From Planctomycetia bacterium (GTDB taxonomy: Bacteria > Planctomycetota > Planctomycetia > Pirellulales > PALSA-1355), in NCBI GenBank assembly GCA_016200205.1, contig JACQFF010000135.1:1-37442 (forward strand): a stretch of 37,442 nt of DNA. Direction: 5' to 3'. Made by a program: the position numbers and the translations under genes. The notes below the pieces were generated by a model. It was not told where the DNA came from. It searched no databases and saw only the letters and a program-made list of their open reading frames with translations. Below are positions 9,020 through 26,841 of this stretch, piece by piece. The stretch's first letter is position 1; each line of letters begins with the position of its first letter.

Positions 9020-10489
9020 TCAGGCCACGATGCCCTCGATCACATGCCCGCCGACGATGGTCAGCCGCTCGGCGCGGCCGTTGTGCATCAGGGTTAGTTC
9101 TTCGTGATTGAGCCCCAGCAGGTGCAAGATCGTGGCGTGGATATCGTTGACGTGGGCTCGGTTTTCGATCGCATACAGGCCGATTTCGTCGGTCGCACCG
9201 TAGGTGACACCTCCCTTGACGCCGCCGCCGGCCATCCAGATGGTGAATCCATAGGGGTTGTGATCGCGTCCATTGCCGCTTTCGCTCATTGGCGTGCGGC
9301 CGAATTCGCCGCCCCAAATCACCAGCGTGCTTTCCAGCAGCCCGCGGCGCTTCAAATCTTTGAGTAGTCCGGCGATGGGCCGATCGCTTTCGCGGCAATG
9401 CAGGGAATGGTTTCCTTCCACATCGGAGTGGGCGTCCCATTTGCTGCCCGAGCCCATGTAAAGTTGCACGCAGCGCACGCCCCGCTCCACCAGCCGCCGG
9501 GCCAGCAGGCAGTTGCGTCCGTTCTTGGCGGTTTCCTTTTGATCCAAACCGTACAGTTCGCGCGTTTCGACGGTTTCGCCCGACAGATCGATCGCTTCCG
9601 GAGCGGCTGCCTGCATGCGAAAGGCCAATTCGTAGCTGGCGATGCGGGCTTCAAGATTGTTGTCCTCGCCGCGTCCTTGTTGGTGCTGGCGATTGAGCTG
9701 TTGGATGAAATCGAGTTTGCCGCGCTGCCGGCCGCCGGCCGAGGCGTCGGGCGGGGCGACGTGCAAAATGGGCAGCTTGCCGTCGCGGAATTTCGTGCCC
9801 TGATAGGTGGCCGGCATAAAGCCGGTGCTCCAGTTGCGATTCCCGCCCGGCGGGGTATCGAGGTTGTCGGTCAACACCACGTAGCCGGGCAGATCTTCGC
9901 ACTCGCTACCCAGTCCATACAAACACCACGAACCCAACGAGGGCCGACCGCCCAAAACGCTGCCCGTGTTCATTTGGCAAATGCCGCCGACATGATTCAA
10001 TCCGTCGGCATGGCAACTGCGGACGACCGCGAGATCGTCAGCGCAGGTGGCAATTTCCGGATACCAATCGCTGACCCAGATACCCGACTGACCGTACTGG
10101 GCGAATTTGCGCTGACTTGCCAAAAGCGGCGTAAACGCCGTGCGGCCCATGGCGGTGATCGGCCGCTCGAAACTGTCGGGCAGTGGTTTGCCGGCCAGCT
10201 TATGCAACTCGGGCTTGGGATCAAACAAGTCGATGTGGCTCGGCCCGCCGTCGATAAAACACCAAATCACGTTTTTGGCGGTGGCTGGAAAATGGGGTGC
10301 TTTGGGCGCAATCGCGTTGCGAATCGATCCGTTCTGTGGGATTGTCGCGCCGGCCTCACGTGATAAGAGTGCCATCAAGGCCAGACTGCCAAAACCGCCG
10401 CCCGCGCGAGCGAGAAAATCGCGACGTGACACGGGCGACTCGAAATGCGGCAGTGGTGATGCCGATTGCGACGAGCGGAAAGTTGGCAT
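9020..10489 (-). CDS. DUF1501 family Tat-exported protein
   Basis: 489 residues with a clear Tat signal: SRRDFL at 21-26 followed by GGGFGSLALMALLS. The family motif GGPSHIDLFD is at 81-90, then GICQMNTGS, GRPSLGSWCLYGLGS and a C-terminal GRDHNPYGFTIWMAGGG. It is a paralogue of the protein at 26-1594 with the same motif order. In planctomycetes DUF1501 genes usually follow a DUF1549/DUF1553 gene. Here that partner is upstream on the same strand (10915-13191), but 425 bases with two inverted-repeat elements separate them. The function is not established beyond a predicted phosphatase/sulfatase-like fold. Confidence 0.93.
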   Translation of the reverse strand: MPTFRSSQSASPLPHFESPVSRRDFLARAGGGFGSLALMALLSREAGATIPQNGSIRNAIAPKAPHFPATAKNVIWCFIDGGPSHIDLFDPKPELHKLAGKPLPDSFERPITAMGRTAFTPLLASQRKFAQYGQSGIWVSDWYPEIATCADDLAVVRSCHADGLNHVGGICQMNTGSVLGGRPSLGSWCLYGLGSECEDLPGYVVLTDNLDTPPGGNRNWSTGFMPATYQGTKFRDGKLPILHVAPPDASAGGRQRGKLDFIQQLNRQHQQGRGEDNNLEARIASYELAFRMQAAAPEAIDLSGETVETRELYGLDQKETAKNGRNCLLARRLVERGVRCVQLYMGSGSKWDAHSDVEGNHSLHCRESDRPIAGLLKDLKRRGLLESTLVIWGGEFGRTPMSESGNGRDHNPYGFTIWMAGGGVKGGVTYGATDEIGLYAIENRAHVNDIHATILHLLGLNHEELTLMHNGRAERLTIVGGHVIEGIVA

Positions 10490-10519
10490 GGCGCGAGGGA
10501 CTCAGGGCCTGGGTTCTAA

Positions 10520-10650
10520 GAACACGTCTTCAAAACGTTCCGAACGTTGGAATTTGGGAGGGCGAAGCTCCCGCTGAGCCGATTTTACACCGGAAGTAGA
10601 GGCTCGGCAGGAGCCTCGCCCTCCCGGTCGCGTAATTTGAAGACACGTTC
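10520..10650. mobile_element. MITE-like element, copy 1 (131 bp, TAA target duplication)
   Basis: The ends are inverted: GAACACGTCTTCAAA on the left and TTTGAAGACACGTTC on the right (two mismatches). Inside, two 25-base arms starting GGGAGGGCGAAGCTCC and ending GGAGCCTCGCCCTCCC pair with three mismatches. Direct TAA repeats flank the element at 10517-10519 and 10651-10653. A near-identical copy lies at 23552-23683. It codes for nothing. A 3-bp T-W-A duplication fits movement by an IS5/IS1031-type transposase; this is inference, since no transposase for it is in the window. Confidence 0.82.
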
Positions 10651-10684
10651 TAAGTGCGAACTAGGAAAGAGTTATGGTGTTTAC

Positions 10685-10886
10685 TAATCCGAAGCGCAAC
10701 AGAAATATGCGAGTGCAAGCAATAACTGGGTGACCCAGACAACTTGTTGTCTGGGTCCCGAAGGGACAAGAGGACCCTTTTGCGGCGTCAAGCGTCTCTG
10801 GTTGCTTTGCAACGCCGACAACGAGTTGTCGGCGCCACCCAAAACGTCGTGCAAGCTTTTGCATAATTCTGTTGCGCGTCGGGTTA
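10685..10886. repeat. Inverted-repeat element with internal stem-loops (202 bp)
   Basis: The 26-base ends at 10685-10710 and 10861-10886 are inverted with three mismatches (core CGCAACAG; outer part T-A-A-Y-C-C-G-A). Inside are a perfect 10-bp stem with a CTTG loop at 10733-10756 (arm ACCCAGACAA) and a perfect 9-bp stem at 10814-10833 (arm GCCGACAAC). No target duplication is evident. No coding frame is supported. The outer end resembles the hairpin arms at 13427-13487. Confidence 0.72.
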
Positions 10887-10914
10887 TTGTAGTGCATTCC
10901 ACGGATCCGCCCAT

Positions 10915-13191
10915 TTAATCGACGTACAAAAACTCATTTGAATTCAATAAGGCATGGCAAAAATCAACAATCGCGGCGGCTTGAGCCGGATCGAGGCCGG
11001 CCGGCATGGACGTTGGGAGCGTCGCCGACGCCGTGGCATCGCCGCTGGCAGCGATCGTTTCGGCCTGGCGGACCAAGAATTCGCGGGCGACGCGAAGCTG
11101 TTCGTCGCTGGGCGACCGCGCGAAAGCTTCCGCATATGCGGCAAGCACTAGCGCGGCGAGGTCCCGGCCGTGCTCGATCAACAAGCGTCCGCTCCAATGC
11201 TGCGCTTGAATAAGCGCAAAATCGCTGTTCAGTAGCGCGAGCGCCTGCGGGGCCGTCGTTGTCGTGCTCCGCTGCGGACAACTATTGTGCATGTCGGGCA
11301 AATCGAAAATGTCCAGCAGCGGATAACGCAGATTGCGCTTCGCCAGCACGTAAATCGACCGCCGGTTTCGATCGGCAACCGCGGCGTCGGGCTTCCATGC
11401 ATATTTCGGTTCGATGCCCTTCGGCAGCTCCGGGCGGGCGCTGGGGCCGTACATCTGGCCGTTGAGCACGCCGGCGAGTTCGAGCATGGTGTCGCGAATC
11501 GCTTCGCCTTCGAGCCGCCCTCGGCGGGCATGCCACAGCAGTTTATTGGCGCCATCGAGGTCGAGCGCCTTGGCATGGACGGGGTTGTCGAGATCGACCA
11601 GTGACGACTGGCGATACGCGGCCGAGGTGACCATCAGCCGGTGCATCGCTTTGGTGCTCCAGCCCTGGGCAACGAATTCGCAGGAGAGCCAATCGAGCAA
11701 TTCAGGATGCGACGCCCCTTCGCCCATGGCGCCGAAATCATTGGGGGTGCCAACAATCCCGCGGCCGAAATGATGCTGCCAGATGCGGTTGACCATCACA
11801 CGCGACGTCAGCGGATGATCGCTTCGGCAAAGCCACTCGGCCAGCGCCGAGCGGCGCCCGGAGGACGCGGCGCCACTGGGAGGCACAAGCCGCGGTTCGC
11901 TGGAACCCAAGAACGACGGAAAACCGGGCTGCACCTCTTCGAGTGGCTTGCGAAAGTTGCCGACCGCCAGGCGAAACGTGGGAGGTGCTTGAGCCGAGGC
12001 ATCGCTGACCGCCATGGCAGTGGGAATCGGTGCCGGTTTTACGCTGTCGAACCCGGCAAGTTGCTGTTCAAGCTCCTCGTATTGCCGTTTCTCGTCGCCT
12101 TTCAGTTTGTCCGTGATTTCCCGCAACTTCGGCTCGACGTACTTCATGGCCTGCGTGGCCATCCGCTTGTCCATCGCCGAGCGTTTTTCCGCGGGCGTTT
12201 CCACCGCCTGGCGAATGTCGGGCTCGAACTTGAGTAGCGCGTCCTTCATGGCCGCATCGCGCTTGGGGGCCAAGATTGCTTCGATAGAATCGCGAACGGA
12301 TTTCGTCGCTTGCTCCCAATCGGCCAATTGCTGGGCATATTGCCGCCGTTGTTCGCGCGTGGCCAAGGGCACGTCGTCGCGCGGCAACATGGGGGCGAAG
12401 AACGCTTGCAGCCGGTAATAGTCGACTTGCGTTATCGGGTCGAACTTATGGTCGTGGCACTGCGCGCATCCGATAGTCAGGCCCAGGAAGGCCAGGCCCA
12501 ACGTCTCGGTCAAGTCGTCGTGAATTTCCTGCAACCGCTGCCGCACGTTGGCGGCGTTCGATTCATCGGGGTAGAGGCGGTTCAACCCGGTGGCGACGAG
12601 TGCCTCTGGATTGTCGGGCTCCAATTCATCGCCCGCCAACTGCTGGCGAATGAACCGGTCGTAGGGCAAGTCGGCATTGAAAGCCCGAATTACGTAGTCG
12701 CGATACGCATGAGCATTCGGCCGAAACGCGTCTTCTTTGAAACCATCGGTCTCCGCGTACCGCACGACGTCGAGCCAATGTTGCCCCCAGCGCTCGCCGT
12801 AGCGGGGCGAATCGAGCAATCGATCGACAAGCTTTTCATAAGCGTCGCTGCTTTGATCGGCCAGGAAGTCGTGCTGTTCAGCAGGCGAGGGTGGCAACCC
12901 GGTCAAATCGAACGTCACGCGACGCAAGAGTGTCAACTTGTCGGCGGCCGAATTGGGCTGAAGCCCTTTTTCCTCCAGAGCGTGAAGGATGAACGCATCG
13001 ATCGGACTGACAACCCAAGCCGGATTGCCGACCGCAGGCAACGCCGGCCGCTCGGGCGGGCGGAAGGGCCATTTGCCGCTCTTGAAACTCGCCGAGGTTT
13101 CCGCTGCCCAGAGTGGGCTACACACCGCCAGACCCAGCAGGCCCGCTACAGCACAATGCCACCTCACGTTGCGGTATCGCCGGTATCGCAT
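10915..13191 (-). CDS. DUF1549/DUF1553 domain exported protein
   Basis: 758 residues. A signal peptide (WHCAVAGLLGLAVCSPLWAA) is followed by DUF1549: VSPIDAFILHALEEKGLQP, RRVTFDLTGLPPSP, YGERWGQHWLDVVRYAETDG. A single CxxCH (CAQCH, 242-246) in CAQCHDHKFDPITQVDYY lies within that domain. DUF1553 follows: ALAEWLCRSDHPLTSRVMVNRIWQHHFGRGIVGTPNDFG, RGRLEGEAIRDTMLELAG, STTTTAPQALALLN. The extra N-terminal PSCyt1 cytochrome domain that many relatives carry is absent. A Lys/Glu-rich helical insert (about 300-390) joins the domains. These proteins pair with DUF1501 genes and are thought to take part in breakdown of complex polymers in planctomycetes, but the reaction is unproven. No upstream cytochrome gene is visible. 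Confidence 0.93.
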   Translation of the reverse strand: MRYRRYRNVRWHCAVAGLLGLAVCSPLWAAETSASFKSGKWPFRPPERPALPAVGNPAWVVSPIDAFILHALEEKGLQPNSAADKLTLLRRVTFDLTGLPPSPAEQHDFLADQSSDAYEKLVDRLLDSPRYGERWGQHWLDVVRYAETDGFKEDAFRPNAHAYRDYVIRAFNADLPYDRFIRQQLAGDELEPDNPEALVATGLNRLYPDESNAANVRQRLQEIHDDLTETLGLAFLGLTIGCAQCHDHKFDPITQVDYYRLQAFFAPMLPRDDVPLATREQRRQYAQQLADWEQATKSVRDSIEAILAPKRDAAMKDALLKFEPDIRQAVETPAEKRSAMDKRMATQAMKYVEPKLREITDKLKGDEKRQYEELEQQLAGFDSVKPAPIPTAMAVSDASAQAPPTFRLAVGNFRKPLEEVQPGFPSFLGSSEPRLVPPSGAASSGRRSALAEWLCRSDHPLTSRVMVNRIWQHHFGRGIVGTPNDFGAMGEGASHPELLDWLSCEFVAQGWSTKAMHRLMVTSAAYRQSSLVDLDNPVHAKALDLDGANKLLWHARRGRLEGEAIRDTMLELAGVLNGQMYGPSARPELPKGIEPKYAWKPDAAVADRNRRSIYVLAKRNLRYPLLDIFDLPDMHNSCPQRSTTTTAPQALALLNSDFALIQAQHWSGRLLIEHGRDLAALVLAAYAEAFARSPSDEQLRVAREFLVRQAETIAASGDATASATLPTSMPAGLDPAQAAAIVDFCHALLNSNEFLYVD

Positions 13192-13585
13192 CGCGGCTTG
13201 ATCCTCGAATCATTCTGTTGGCCAGCGGCGAAGTCCATCATAGCCGCCCGGAGGAAGTGCCGGCAAGCTCTGGCAAAAGACGGTTATGGGTGTGTTAAGA
13301 GTGTGGTGGGGAATCCAGGTGTCTTGAGCGCTCGGCGAGTTTGGGCCCTACGCTCATTCCGGCGATTATAAGCTAACACTGGGCGGCACCGGCAACTTGT
13401 CGAGACACTCCGGGAATTCAAATCTACTAACCCGACGCGCAAGCGAGGGAAAATCGCGGCTCAGCCCTCGCTTGCGCGTCGCGTTAGTGGATCGACGCTT
13501 GACTCCGGACATTTTCGCGTGACGAGTTTCCGGACAGTCTCAACAAGTTGTCTGGGTCACCCCGGACATGCATGCCAACGTTACA
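13192..13585. other. Repeat-rich intergenic region
   Basis: 394 bases with no supported gene. It contains the long hairpin at 13427-13487 and, at 13541-13562, a 22-base stretch that is the exact reverse complement of 10728-10749 inside the 202-bp element. TCCGGACA-like words recur (13505, 13530, 13563). It separates the end of the ABC exporter gene from the start of the DUF1549 gene, both on the minus strand, and should hold the promoter of the latter, though no clear hexamers were found. Confidence 0.6.
13427..13487. repeat. Long near-perfect hairpin (CTAACCCGACGCGCAAG family)
   Basis: Arms of 23 bases at 13427-13449 and 13465-13487 pair with one mismatch around a 15-base loop. The arm begins CTAACCCGACGCGCAAGC. 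The first part is shared with the ends of the element at 10685-10886, so both look like members of one repeat family. It has no run of U after either arm, so a classical intrinsic terminator is not supported. Confidence 0.75.
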
Positions 13586-22527: not shown

Positions 22528-23418
22528 TTAGCTTGGCTGGTTGAGATACCGTTTGGCCACTTTCGCCCCGACGGTGCCGATGCCGTAATATCCGATCGAC
22601 AATTGGGCCACGTGCGTCAGTAGGTCATAGGCTCGCCAGCGGTTCCAGCCAAAATCCTGCTCCATCCACAAGATCAACTGAGCGAAGGCTTGGGCCGTGG
22701 ACCGCTCCATGGGGCAGCCGCTGACGACCGTCACGATCTCGCTCGGCGTCTCGATGCGTGGCCCGCTTTGGCGCTTGTTCTTCAGCACATGGACGGTAAT
22801 CACGCTTTCGGCCGGCATTTCCAAACCGCTGGCCGACAGTTCGCCGTGGCCCATCGCGGAGTGAGCATCGCCCAAGTAGAGGTAGCCGCCTGGCACGTAG
22901 ACCGGCAAATAGATCGTGTTGCCCGGACAAACTTCGACGATGTCCATGTTGCCGCCATGCGGTCCGGCGGGCAACGTCGTGGGCGCGCCCCAAGACGGCG
23001 CGGTGCCGATGCAGCCCAGCATCGGCGCATAGGGGATCGTCAACTTGTCGCTCCAGTGGATTTGGCCATCGCTGATCGGGCACACGTGGGTGCCGTGCGG
23101 GCAATCGTCGCCCAGCCATTGGGCGAGTTGATTGGGATCGCTGGTGCGAGTGACGCATTGTCCGATGGTGGGCGTGATCGACTCGATCTTCACCGCCAAC
23201 GCATCGCCCGGTTCCGCGCCCGAAATCCAGATCGGTCCGGTCTGCGGATTGCTGTAGGGCATCTTGGTTCTGTCGCGGCGATCGTCGTTCGTGCGAATCT
23301 GGCCGGAGAAGGCATCTTCGGTTTCGACGACCACCGTTTCGCCCGGCTCGATCCGCAGGCGCGGCTCGACCTGGCGGCTGTACTCGTAATAAAGCGGACC
23401 CAGCGGCAAACGCTTCAT
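22528..23418 (-). CDS. Acetamidase/formamidase family amidohydrolase
   Basis: 296 residues, no signal peptide. The FmdA/AmdA fold is recognised by VEPRLRIEPGETVVVETEDAFSGQI, SGAEPGDALAVKIESI, APMLGCIGTAP, PAGPHGGNMDIVEVCPGNTIYLPVYVPGGYLYLGDAHSAMGHGELSASGLEMPAE and a final LLTHVAQLSIGYYGIGT. The GGNMD and GDAHSAMGHGE blocks hold the metal/substrate residues of the family, which hydrolyses formamide or acetamide to ammonia and the acid. A shorter length than classical FmdA (about 400) matches the AmdA branch. Its substrate could be another short amide. The next gene upstream is over 300 bases away, so it probably has its own promoter. Confidence 0.9.
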   Translation of the reverse strand: MKRLPLGPLYYEYSRQVEPRLRIEPGETVVVETEDAFSGQIRTNDDRRDRTKMPYSNPQTGPIWISGAEPGDALAVKIESITPTIGQCVTRTSDPNQLAQWLGDDCPHGTHVCPISDGQIHWSDKLTIPYAPMLGCIGTAPSWGAPTTLPAGPHGGNMDIVEVCPGNTIYLPVYVPGGYLYLGDAHSAMGHGELSASGLEMPAESVITVHVLKNKRQSGPRIETPSEIVTVVSGCPMERSTAQAFAQLILWMEQDFGWNRWRAYDLLTHVAQLSIGYYGIGTVGAKVAKRYLNQPS

Positions 23419-23751
23419 CCGGCTGATCCTTACTCTGGCAGTGGAAAAGACCTCGCAACTTGCTTCCGACTCACCAGTCTAGCGTTCCCCGTGTACCGCG
23501 AGCAACGCTGTACAAGCGCGCTCAGGGTGAAGATAATAGCGGCTCTGCTTAGAACGCGTCTTCAAAACGTTCCGAACGTTGGAATTTGGGAGGGCGAAGC
23601 TCCCGCTGAGCCGATTTTGCACCGGAAGGTAGAGGCTCGGCAGGAGCCTCGCCCTCCCGGTCGCGTAATTTGAAGACACGTTCTTAGAGGATATTCAAGA
23701 CCGCCGGGGACTGTCCCCTTCCTCGAGGCGATTGAATTTGGGGAACCGCAG
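23419..23751. other. Divergent intergenic region carrying MITE copy 2
   Basis: 333 bases between the acetamidase start (-) and the PVC cytochrome start (+). Apart from the element at 23552-23683, the stretch holds the perfect palindrome GGGGACTGTCCCC at 23706-23718, 33 bases before the ATG at 23752. No other structure was noted. Confidence 0.6.
23552..23683. mobile_element. MITE-like element, copy 2 (132 bp, TTA target duplication)
   Basis: It matches the element at 10520-10650 almost base for base: same ends (GAACGCGTCTTCAAA left, TTTGAAGACACGTTC right) and same internal 25-base arms. It differs by three substitutions or so and one inserted G in GGAAGGTAGAGG. Direct TTA repeats flank it at 23549-23551 and 23684-23686. 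The flanking sequences of the two copies are unrelated, which shows transposition rather than segmental duplication. Confidence 0.82.
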
Positions 23752-26700
23752 ATGAAGCGAACTGTCCAGGCTGGGCTCATATCCGCTCTTGTCAGCCTCT
23801 ATTTTCTGAAACCAGCCGCGGCCGACGAGGTGGAGTCGATCGTCAAGACTTTGCGCGTGCCGGCTGGATTTACGGTGGAGTTGGTGGCCGCGGCGCCGTT
23901 GGTGCACCACCCGATCATGGCCGGTTTCGACGATCGGGGGCGGCTGTTCGTGGCGGACAATGCCGGGCTGAATTTGCCGGCCGAAGAATTGCTCAAGCAA
24001 CTGCCCAACATGATTCGTATGTTGGAAGACACCGACGGCGATGGCCGCTTCGACCGCAGTACGCTGTTTGCCGACAAGATGACGTTTCCGCAAGGCGCCG
24101 CGTGGTTTCGCGGCGCCCTTTATGTAGCCAGTCCGCCGAGCATCTGGCGGCTGGAAGATACCGACGGCGACGGCGTGGCGGACCGGCGCGAAGAAATCGT
24201 GCAAAAGTTCGGCTTCACCGGAAATGCGGCCGATATCCACGGCTGCTTTATCACGCCCACGGGGCGGATCGCCTGGTGCGATGGCCGGCACGGTCACGAA
24301 TTCAAGGGCGACAAGGGCCAGATGCCCAGCAAGGGCCTGGCCGCGCGCGTGTTTTCTTGCCGGCCGGATGGCAGTGACGTGGAAGTGTTTTGCGGCGGTG
24401 GGATGGATAATCCGGTGGAAGTCGCCTTCACGCCCGAAGGGGACGTGATCGGCACGATGACCTTTTATAATCCCGACGATGCCCGGCACGATGCCCTGGT
24501 TCATTTTGTCCACGGGGGCGTTTATCCGCGCAAGCATCCTTGCACGAGCGAATTCAAGCGTACCGGCGATTTTCTACCGGCCTTGAGCCGCTTCGGCGCG
24601 GTCGCTCCTTCCGGGCTGACGCGATATAGCAGTGCCACCTGGGGCGAGGAGTTTCGCGACAATTTGTACTCCACTCAGTTCAACACGCACAAAATCGTCC
24701 GGCACGTGCTTTCGCGGCAGGGCGCGACGTACAGTTCGGCGGACGAGGATTTTCTCGTCTCGACGAATGCCGATTTCCATCCCACCGACGTGCTCGAAGA
24801 CGCCGATGGAAGTTTGTTGGTCATTGACACGGGTGGATGGTTTCACATTGGCTGTCCGACTTCGCAAATCGCCAAGCCCCAGATCGGTGGCGGCATCTAT
24901 CGGATTCGCCGCGCGGGAGTCGCGCCGGTTGCCGACCCGCGCGGATTGCAAACGGACTGGGCCCAGGCGTCGGATATTGAACTAGCCGAGCGTTTGGGCG
25001 ACGAGCGGCCGGCGGTTGCCGAGCGGACGCTGGAATTATTGGCCGCGCGGGGCGATCCGGCGATGGGTTCGTTGGCCACCGCCATGTTCGAAAGCACCAG
25101 CTATCGCGCCCGCGAAAACGCCGTCTGGGCTCTGGCGCGCAATGGATCGGACAATGCTCGAAGACTGCTGCGCCAAGCGCTATCGGATGATGATGCTCCG
25201 GTGCGACAAGCGGCCGTGCACAGTGTTTCCGATTTGCGCGACGCCGAGAGTCTGCCGGCGCTGTTGGAGATTTTACAAAAGGACGAGCCGGCCGTGCGGC
25301 GCGAGGCGGCCACCGCGTTGGGCCGCATCGGCAAGGCCGGCGCGGTGCCGGCGCTGCTGGAATCGCTCGGCAAACCGGCCGATCGCTTTGTGGAACATGC
25401 CTTGATTTACGCCTTAATTGAAATCAACGATCGGCCCGCCACGCTGGCCGGCCTGGCTGACCCGCGGCCGGCGGTGCGGCGCGGCGCTTTGATTGCGTTG
25501 GATCAGATGTACCGTGGTCAGTTGACGCGCGAGATCGTCGCGCCGCTCTTGTCGACGGATGACGAGAATCTAATGCGGGCGCTGGTGGAGATTCTGGCCA
25601 AGCACCCGGATTGGGCCGACGAACTGACGAGCCTCGTCGCGGGATGGCTTTCCGAGGCGAGCCCTTCGGCCGAACAACTGGCAACGGTTCGTGGGGCGAT
25701 CTCGGCCTTGATCCAACGGCCGGCCGTGCAAAACCTCGTCGTCGGCCCGCTCGAGAGCGACACAACCGACAGGCAAATTCGCCTGATGCTTTTGGAAGTG
25801 ATCGCTGCCGGCGAGTACGCGAAAATGCCGGCGAATTGGCGCGATGCACTCGGAAAAAACCTGGCCTCGAACGACGGCGAAATTCTTCGTCAGGCGATCG
25901 CGACCGTAGCGGCTCTCGACGTCAGGCCATTTACGGCGAGGCTGATGGACATCGGGATCGACGGCCAACGTCCTGCCGATGTGCGGATCGCCGCGCTGTG
26001 TGCCGCCGCGAAAAACAGTCCGAGCCTGCCGGAAGCGGGCTTCGAGTTTCTATCCAGTCAACTGGAAAACGAGGGTCCGCTGCGAGACCGCCTGGCCGCG
26101 GCCGAAGCGCTGGGTGGCATGGCGCTCAGCGCGCCGCAATTGGAAGCCGCGGCTCGGCTGGCCGCGCACTGCGGCCCCTTGGAGATCTCTTGGCTGGTGC
26201 GAGCATTTGCCCACGATACGAATGCTCGCACGGGGCGGCTGCTCATCGACTCCCTGTCGAGGTCGCCGGCACTAGCCAGCCTTCCGGCGGAACGTCTGCG
26301 CGAAGCGTTTAAAAACTATCCCGGCGAAGTGCAGCTTGCGCTGCAACCGCTGATTGATCGCCTTGCAGGCGACGACCAAGAGCGGGCGGCAAAAATGAAG
26401 TCGCTGGAGAAATCGACCGGAAGCGGTGATTCGGCCCAAGGGGAGAATGTGTTTTTCGGTACTCGCGCGGCATGTGCGGCCTGCCACCGAATTGGTGGGC
26501 GTGGAGAAAAGATCGGGCCCGACTTGTCCAAGATCGGTGAAGTCCGCAATCACCGCGACCTTCTCGAAGCCATTCTCTTCCCAAGCGCCAGCCTGGCGCG
26601 CGGCTATGAAAGTTTTCACGTCGTGACCAAATCGGGGCAAGTGCACAGCGGGCTCCTGAGCCGCGAAGCGTCCGCGGCGATTTATTTGCGCACCACCGAG

Positions 26701-26841
26701 CGGATCGAAGTTCGCGTGGACCGCAGCGACATTGAGGAACTGTCGCCGAGCCAGACTTCGATCATGCCCCAGGGCATGGAGAAAATCCTGTCGCCGCGCG
26801 AGCTCGCCGACGTGGTTGCCTACCTGCAATCGCTCAAGTGA
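23752..26841 (+). CDS. PVC-type membrane-bound dehydrogenase/HEAT-repeat/cytochrome c protein
   Basis: 1029 residues. After a signal peptide (1-24) comes a beta-propeller-like dehydrogenase domain (about 30-385; planctomycete TIGR02604 type): VPAGFTVELVAAAPLVHHPIMAGFDDRGRLFVAD, MLEDTDGDGRFDRSTLFAD, RLEDTDGDGVADRREEIV, FHPTDVLEDADGSLLVIDTGGW. A HEAT-repeat solenoid follows (about 400-860; e.g. DDDAPVRQAAVHSVSDLRD and KDEPAVRREAATALGRIG). The C-terminus (about 895-1029; TIGR02603 type) has one heme c site CAACH (908-912) and the distal motif SIMPQGMEKILSPRELADVVAYLQSL. It is expected in the periplasm/paryphoplasm as a heme-bearing oxidoreductase acting on sugars or alcohols; substrate unknown. 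No defects were seen. Confidence 0.93.
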   Translation: MKRTVQAGLISALVSLYFLKPAAADEVESIVKTLRVPAGFTVELVAAAPLVHHPIMAGFDDRGRLFVADNAGLNLPAEELLKQLPNMIRMLEDTDGDGRFDRSTLFADKMTFPQGAAWFRGALYVASPPSIWRLEDTDGDGVADRREEIVQKFGFTGNAADIHGCFITPTGRIAWCDGRHGHEFKGDKGQMPSKGLAARVFSCRPDGSDVEVFCGGGMDNPVEVAFTPEGDVIGTMTFYNPDDARHDALVHFVHGGVYPRKHPCTSEFKRTGDFLPALSRFGAVAPSGLTRYSSATWGEEFRDNLYSTQFNTHKIVRHVLSRQGATYSSADEDFLVSTNADFHPTDVLEDADGSLLVIDTGGWFHIGCPTSQIAKPQIGGGIYRIRRAGVAPVADPRGLQTDWAQASDIELAERLGDERPAVAERTLELLAARGDPAMGSLATAMFESTSYRARENAVWALARNGSDNARRLLRQALSDDDAPVRQAAVHSVSDLRDAESLPALLEILQKDEPAVRREAATALGRIGKAGAVPALLESLGKPADRFVEHALIYALIEINDRPATLAGLADPRPAVRRGALIALDQMYRGQLTREIVAPLLSTDDENLMRALVEILAKHPDWADELTSLVAGWLSEASPSAEQLATVRGAISALIQRPAVQNLVVGPLESDTTDRQIRLMLLEVIAAGEYAKMPANWRDALGKNLASNDGEILRQAIATVAALDVRPFTARLMDIGIDGQRPADVRIAALCAAAKNSPSLPEAGFEFLSSQLENEGPLRDRLAAAEALGGMALSAPQLEAAARLAAHCGPLEISWLVRAFAHDTNARTGRLLIDSLSRSPALASLPAERLREAFKNYPGEVQLALQPLIDRLAGDDQERAAKMKSLEKSTGSGDSAQGENVFFGTRAACAACHRIGGRGEKIGPDLSKIGEVRNHRDLLEAILFPSASLARGYESFHVVTKSGQVHSGLLSREASAAIYLRTTERIEVRVDRSDIEELSPSQTSIMPQGMEKILSPRELADVVAYLQSLK

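Follow-up and report, generated by a model that had tools for sequence, protein, structure and literature searches.

The window analysed in this study, a stretch of 37,442 nucleotides (contig JACQFF010000135.1) from a planctomycete of the order Pirellulales, contains two copies of a MITE, and I consider it highly probable that this MITE is moved by an IS5/IS1031-type transposase and bears as its core a captured REPIN of the RAYT family, amplified as the cargo of the MITE. According to the proposed mechanism, the transposase of a partner IS (IS5 family, IS1031 kind) would recognise the 15-bp ends of the MITE and insert it at C-TNA-G, duplicating the TNA. The REPIN, a RAYT-family inverted pair of REPs, would have been captured as the core of the MITE and would travel with it, the REPs of this genome having multiplied almost entirely in that manner. 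An intact RAYT gene with a REPIN of its own is still present elsewhere in the genome. The MITE by itself would be ordinary; the added finding is that an IS5-type MITE has, in its standard form, a REPIN of the RAYT type at its core.

The original prediction, made from the letters of the window, had placed an element with inverted ends and TAA or TTA flanks at 10520-10650 and 23552-23683, and the element is present at exactly those coordinates (Table 1). Both copies have inverted ends of the form GAAC...GTTC, the end motif TNAGAACRYGTCTTCAA occurring four times in the window as against 0.05 times expected from shuffles, and the copies differ from one another by a few substitutions and a single 1-bp insertion. 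The strand of each copy folds into an extended hairpin, well below shuffles in energy score (z = -6.9 and -7.7), formed by an inverted pair of REP arms (22 of 25 positions paired between 10556-10580 and 10601-10625 in copy 1). A single REP arm alone folds no better than shuffles do.

Table 1. Coordinates of the two MITE copies and their parts within the window.
Feature	Position	Strand	Remarks
MITE copy 1	10520..10650	+	131 bp
Copy 1, left target-site duplication TAA	10517..10519		in C-TAA-G
Copy 1, right target-site duplication TAA	10651..10653		
Copy 1, left terminal inverted repeat GAACACGTCTTCAAA	10520..10534	+	IS5/IS1031-type end, same in IS of genome G056
Copy 1, right terminal inverted repeat	10636..10650	-	GAACGTGTCTTCAAA on - strand
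Copy 1, REPIN left arm	10556..10580	-	REP, 2 mismatches to GGCTCGGCRGGAGCCTCGCCCTCCC
Copy 1, REPIN loop	10581..10600		20 nt
Copy 1, REPIN right arm	10601..10625	+	exact REP
MITE copy 2	23552..23683	+	132 bp; 1 additional G in loop
Copy 2, left target-site duplication TTA	23549..23551		in C-TTA-G
Copy 2, right target-site duplication TTA	23684..23686		
Copy 2, left terminal inverted repeat GAACGCGTCTTCAAA	23552..23566	+	
Copy 2, right terminal inverted repeat	23669..23683	-	
Copy 2, REPIN left arm	23588..23612	-	REP, 2 mismatches
Copy 2, REPIN loop	23613..23633		21 nt
Copy 2, REPIN right arm	23634..23658	+	exact REP
GAACRYGTCTTCAA ends			MITE terminal-repeat ends

A search of the whole genome (G000; 4.96 Mb in 328 contigs, 95.8% complete) found 29 full or near-full copies of the MITE, dispersed, together with a 76-bp copy showing an apparent deletion inside the hairpin (on contig C286) and two decayed copies (on C70 and C313), the one on C313 being an isolated core with the same loop as the MITE. 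Twenty copies make up a young group with a mean pairwise difference of 1.8% and 23 identical pairs, and eight others differ among themselves by 17% on average. When the 3-bp flanks were listed for the 29 copies whose two ends could both be read, a perfect direct repeat was seen in 24, and 23 of these 24 are TAA or TTA, in agreement with the T-W-A duplication first claimed. The base preceding the duplication is C in 21 of the 24 copies and the base following it is G, again in 21, a bias that marks C-TNA-G as the preferred target. The duplication is 3 bp long, not 5 bp, since in copies such as L011, L012, and L015 the TNA repeat is intact despite a differing outer base.

The flanks of different copies show no end-to-end alignment, nor anything in common beyond short repeats. 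One copy (L024, at G000:C49:41-672) splits a gene, with residues 1-102 encoded on one side of the MITE and residues 99-166 on the other. The gene, conserved, about 166 amino acids long, and without a Pfam match, is intact in many genomes of the same order and uninterrupted in relatives that include one of the same family (G002; 56% identical over residues 1-163), a comparison that amounts to an empty-site argument by homology. The unrelated flanks, the 3-bp duplications, and the split gene together refute segmental duplication, and with copies so numerous the earlier view that the element moves as a unit is supported. The element is therefore a MITE, and non-autonomous: it is short, lacks coding capacity, has 15-bp ends, is present in about 30 dispersed copies, and is bordered by target duplications.

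The IS5/IS1031-type transposase that had been postulated, and noted as missing from the window, is indeed not there, nor were relatives of the partner transposase or DUF4096 proteins found in the rest of the assembly. Clear MITE ends in this genome are paired within an element, except on C301, where the element is cut by the contig start. The end motif was then sought in 397 genomes of the same order. One of these (G056) has six matches. Five are no more than about 140 bases away from the end of a contig, which would be expected if the assembly breaks at a longer repeat. The sixth lies in a complete IS of 890 bp (L073, on G056:C156) that reads TTA-GAACGTGTCTTCAAA ... TTTGAAGACACGGTC-TTA. Its ends, GAACGTGTCTTCAAA and GACCGTGTCTTCAAA, bordered by TTA on either side, are the same 15-bp ends as those of the MITE, and it carries a single ORF of 263 amino acids that matches NF033580 (IS5 family; E = 6.8e-70), DUF4096, and DDE_Tnp_1. 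The start of a similar IS lies at a contig end in G047. The transposase gene with the same ends was thus found in relatives, not in the MITE's own genome.

Relatives occur, among others, in a Pirellulales MAG (79% identity), a Planctomycetota MAG (73%), and Planctomycetales bacterium 10988 (57%), each of the three having C-TNA-G targets and related ends, and homologues 47-48% identical are found in Acetobacter and Gluconacetobacter. Members of the IS1031 group commonly have one ORF and a 3-bp site (PMC2516522). The partner IS belongs to the IS5 family by its match to NF033580, and its single ORF and TNA duplication make it probably an IS1031-type member, a placement to which the homologues in Acetobacter and Gluconacetobacter lend indirect support only. 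The MITE matches the IS of G056 only at the ends, which indicates a MITE that shares ends with the IS rather than a simple internal deletion of it. The common ends and duplication provide strong circumstantial evidence, from which I infer that the MITE is mobilised in trans by an IS5-type transposase. No genome with both the partner IS and the MITE was found among those searched; the IS has either been lost from the MITE's genome, been missed by the assembly, or acted only transiently.

The large internal palindrome of the original prediction is real, as the hairpin attests, and what went unrecognised was its identity: it is a REPIN of a RAYT-linked repeat system, in which a 25-bp REP is present twice in inverted orientation. 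When families of the order other than the MITE's own were searched with the MITE, mostly the hairpin core alone was matched. Counts of the REP arm GGCTCGGCRGGAGCCTCGCCCTCCC are 275 for G037, 126 for G061, 59 for the MITE's own genome, 48 for G086, and 39 for G024; a reversed-pattern control gave no occurrences, and there are none in the same-genus and same-family genomes G001-G003. In the order the arm stands alone or is paired with an inverted partner across a loop of about 10-80 nt, and terminal repeats are usually lacking around it; REPs and REPINs are organised in this way (PMC3116915). The head of this REP is GGGAGGG, not the GTAG (or GTGG) that defines GTAG-type REPs.

About 54 of the 59 arms in the MITE's own genome lie within the MITE family, only five being clearly outside it (two on contig C180, two on C152, and one on C299), and so an IS5-type transposase, not a RAYT, appears to have spread them here. 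The duplications are found at the ends of the MITE, not at those of the REPIN, and the REPINs inside the MITE consequently give no sign of independent spread driven by a RAYT. Within the MITE, the REPIN appears to be a captured unit, not an independently moving one. No ancestral MITE without the REPIN was found.

A REPIN-carrying MITE is seen also in a genome from another family (G077), which contains at least five degraded REPIN units, several with the common tail GTCAACTCACGAAATCG.... At locus L089 of that genome the ends are GTGCGTGTCTTGAAAT...ATTTGAAGACGCGTTC, with TAA on either side. The loop and spacers differ from those of the MITE described here, and the two may represent one old capture or two. 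REPINs in three further genomes lie inside other, unrelated inverted repeats of about 16-30 bp (L094, 440-590, in G024; L095, 450-600, in G072; L195, 400-570, in G086). The flanking repeats are significant in all three cases, which are possible further REPIN-carrying MITEs and are offered as leads only.

The first matches to Y1_Tnp in arm-rich genomes (G037, G086, and G024) had no close REP arms nearby. An ORF of G077 with an HUH motif and a weak match to Y1_Tnp is flanked by REPs, as predicted for a RAYT, and homology to it led to the RAYT subfamily. The MITE's own genome has an intact member (C180:71264-71731), 55% identical to the ORF of G077, with a REPIN that starts 64 bp downstream and none upstream. 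The RAYT encoded there scores above NCBIfam's curated cutoff for NF047646 (REP-associated tyrosine transposase) and is similar to TnpArep of PDB 4er8. A homologue in G061 has REP arms on both sides. In a second, independent round, homologues of the RAYT were sought in the 397 genomes. That of G162 (63% identical, with one internal stop in the gene) has exact arms on both sides, that of G273 has twelve arms around it, that of G237 has the REP arm or a close version beside it, and those of G393 and G193 have diverged but recognisable repeats headed by GGGAGGG. Apart from the RAYT of the MITE's own genome, then, REPs flank seven RAYT genes that share at least 49% identity with it, five of them clearly and two in diverged versions. 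The same REP is thus both repeated in the genome and found beside a RAYT gene, as it should be for a REPIN. More distant RAYT genes (L145 in G056 and L146 in G020) have other palindromes alongside that contain GTAG (GTAGCCGGGGTC... and TGTAGTGACGGCTGTCC...), and several RAYT/REP systems therefore coexist in the order.

Might the element be a plain IS5-type MITE whose palindrome is its own structure, the REP-like arms elsewhere being decayed pieces of MITEs? The concentration of this genome's arms within the MITE family agrees with such an explanation, as does the isolated core on C313, but it does not account for dozens to hundreds of arms in genomes without MITE ends, for arms on the flanks of RAYT genes from several of the order's families (with exact arms beside the RAYT of G162), or for the REPINs elsewhere, most of which have no terminal repeats around them. 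These observations largely refute the explanation, and I regard it as very improbable. The converse, that a RAYT moves the element by single-strand, IS200-like chemistry and that the terminal repeats are incidental, is harder still to credit. It could appeal to the intact RAYT with its own REPIN in this genome. Transposition of the IS200 kind, however, takes place without target duplication, whereas exact 3-bp duplications border 24 of 29 copies precisely at the GAAC/GTTC ends, and those ends are the ends of an IS from the IS5 family.

It is scarcely more believable that the copies arose by segmental or recombinational duplication, or that they are regulatory hairpins (terminators or RNA elements) maintained by selection and not mobile. 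Both copies in the window are intergenic and the hairpin is strong, as such an account would have it, but the flanks lack end-to-end similarity, target duplications are present, and one copy (L024) disrupts a gene. Moreover, Rfam has no match in the window, and the hairpin of copy 1 is not called as a T-tailed terminator.

The divergence of different parts of the MITE was compared amongst the eight older copies and the consensus of the young group. The REP arms show 0.062 differences per site, as compared to 0.154 for the ends, 0.210 for the spacers, and 0.332 for the loop, and the difference between the arms and the spacers plus loop was reached by none of 10,000 permutations. In several lineages the arms are asymmetric in the same way (22 of 25 paired), and so they have not simply been corrected to each other. 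Their low variation could reflect a constraint on the hairpin in transposition, recognition by a RAYT, or another function, and a mixture of lineages could contribute. A true hybrid, in which the IS5-type transposase acts on the ends and the RAYT acts on or is served by the arms, which are then under selection, would fit both the conservation of the arms above all other parts and the occurrence in G077 of a MITE that has ends of this kind and carries a REPIN. I take this to be unlikely and prefer the reading of a MITE moved by an IS5/IS1031-type transposase with the REPIN as captured cargo.

The MITE resembles known MITEs of the IS5 family (IS1031 group) in being short and free of genes, with 15-bp ends identical to those of a real IS5-family IS, a 3-bp TNA duplication, and near-identical dispersed copies. 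It differs from them in that its core is a REPIN belonging to another class of transposon and in that the partner IS is absent from its own assembly. Likeness to REPIN and REP-RAYT systems (Nunvar 2010, PMC2817692; Bertels and Rainey 2011, PMC3116915) lies in the inverted doublet of REPs with a spacer of about 20 nt, able to form a hairpin, and in the presence of the same REP beside RAYT genes, one of which, in this genome, passes NF047646. Unlike those systems, most doublets here lie inside a DDE-type MITE with target duplications, and the head of the REP is GGGAGGG, not the classic GTAG. RAYT-like genes with repeats not of the GTAG type are called TIRYTs in PMC3733652, and by those terms the present RAYT and its REP may be a TIRYT system. 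The BOX, RUP, and SPRITE elements of pneumococcus (PMC3049150) also show one small mobile repeat nested in another, but there the nesting is case by case, at individual loci, whereas here nesting is the standard condition of the element, and the nested unit has been amplified to about 30 copies. I found no report in the open-access literature of a REPIN as the core of an IS5-type or other DDE-type MITE, nor any paper on this planctomycete REP. Several REP families are known from R. baltica (PMC3733652).

A REPIN within a MITE would provide REPs a second route of spread, by an unrelated transposase and without a RAYT, and it would explain a number of REPs that rises independently of the RAYT. 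REPINs are normally thought to persist only by means of a single-copy RAYT. The arrangement also offers a natural case in which to consider the conservation of arms for purposes beyond RAYT recognition.

As to the surroundings within the window, copy 1 occupies the gap between a DUF1501 ORF (9020-10489, - strand), from whose start it is 30 bp upstream, and a PSCyt2/PSD1 ORF (10915-13191, - strand). The ORFs on the two sides of copy 2 are divergent, one of the FmdA/AmdA family (22528-23418, - strand) and one with DUF7133, HEAT, and cytochrome c (23752-26841, + strand). Other palindromic repeats are present as well. One, at 13422-13492, consists of ATCTACTAACCCGACGCGCAAGCGAGGG and CCCTCGCTTGCGCGTCGCGTTAGTGGAT (93% complementary, with a 15-nt loop), has a partial copy at 10872-10889, and is probably another REP family. 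Another, around CCCAGACAACTTGTTGTCTGGG, occurs at 10715-10762 and in an inverted copy at 13528-13575, 2.8 kb apart, the two bracketing the PSCyt2/PSD1 gene. Finally, two copies of the MITE adjoin the same kind of short repeat, CTAAYCCGAAGCGCAA... (in the right flank of L011 and at 10685-10721 of the window), which suggests that the MITE sometimes inserts in or beside other REP-like repeats.
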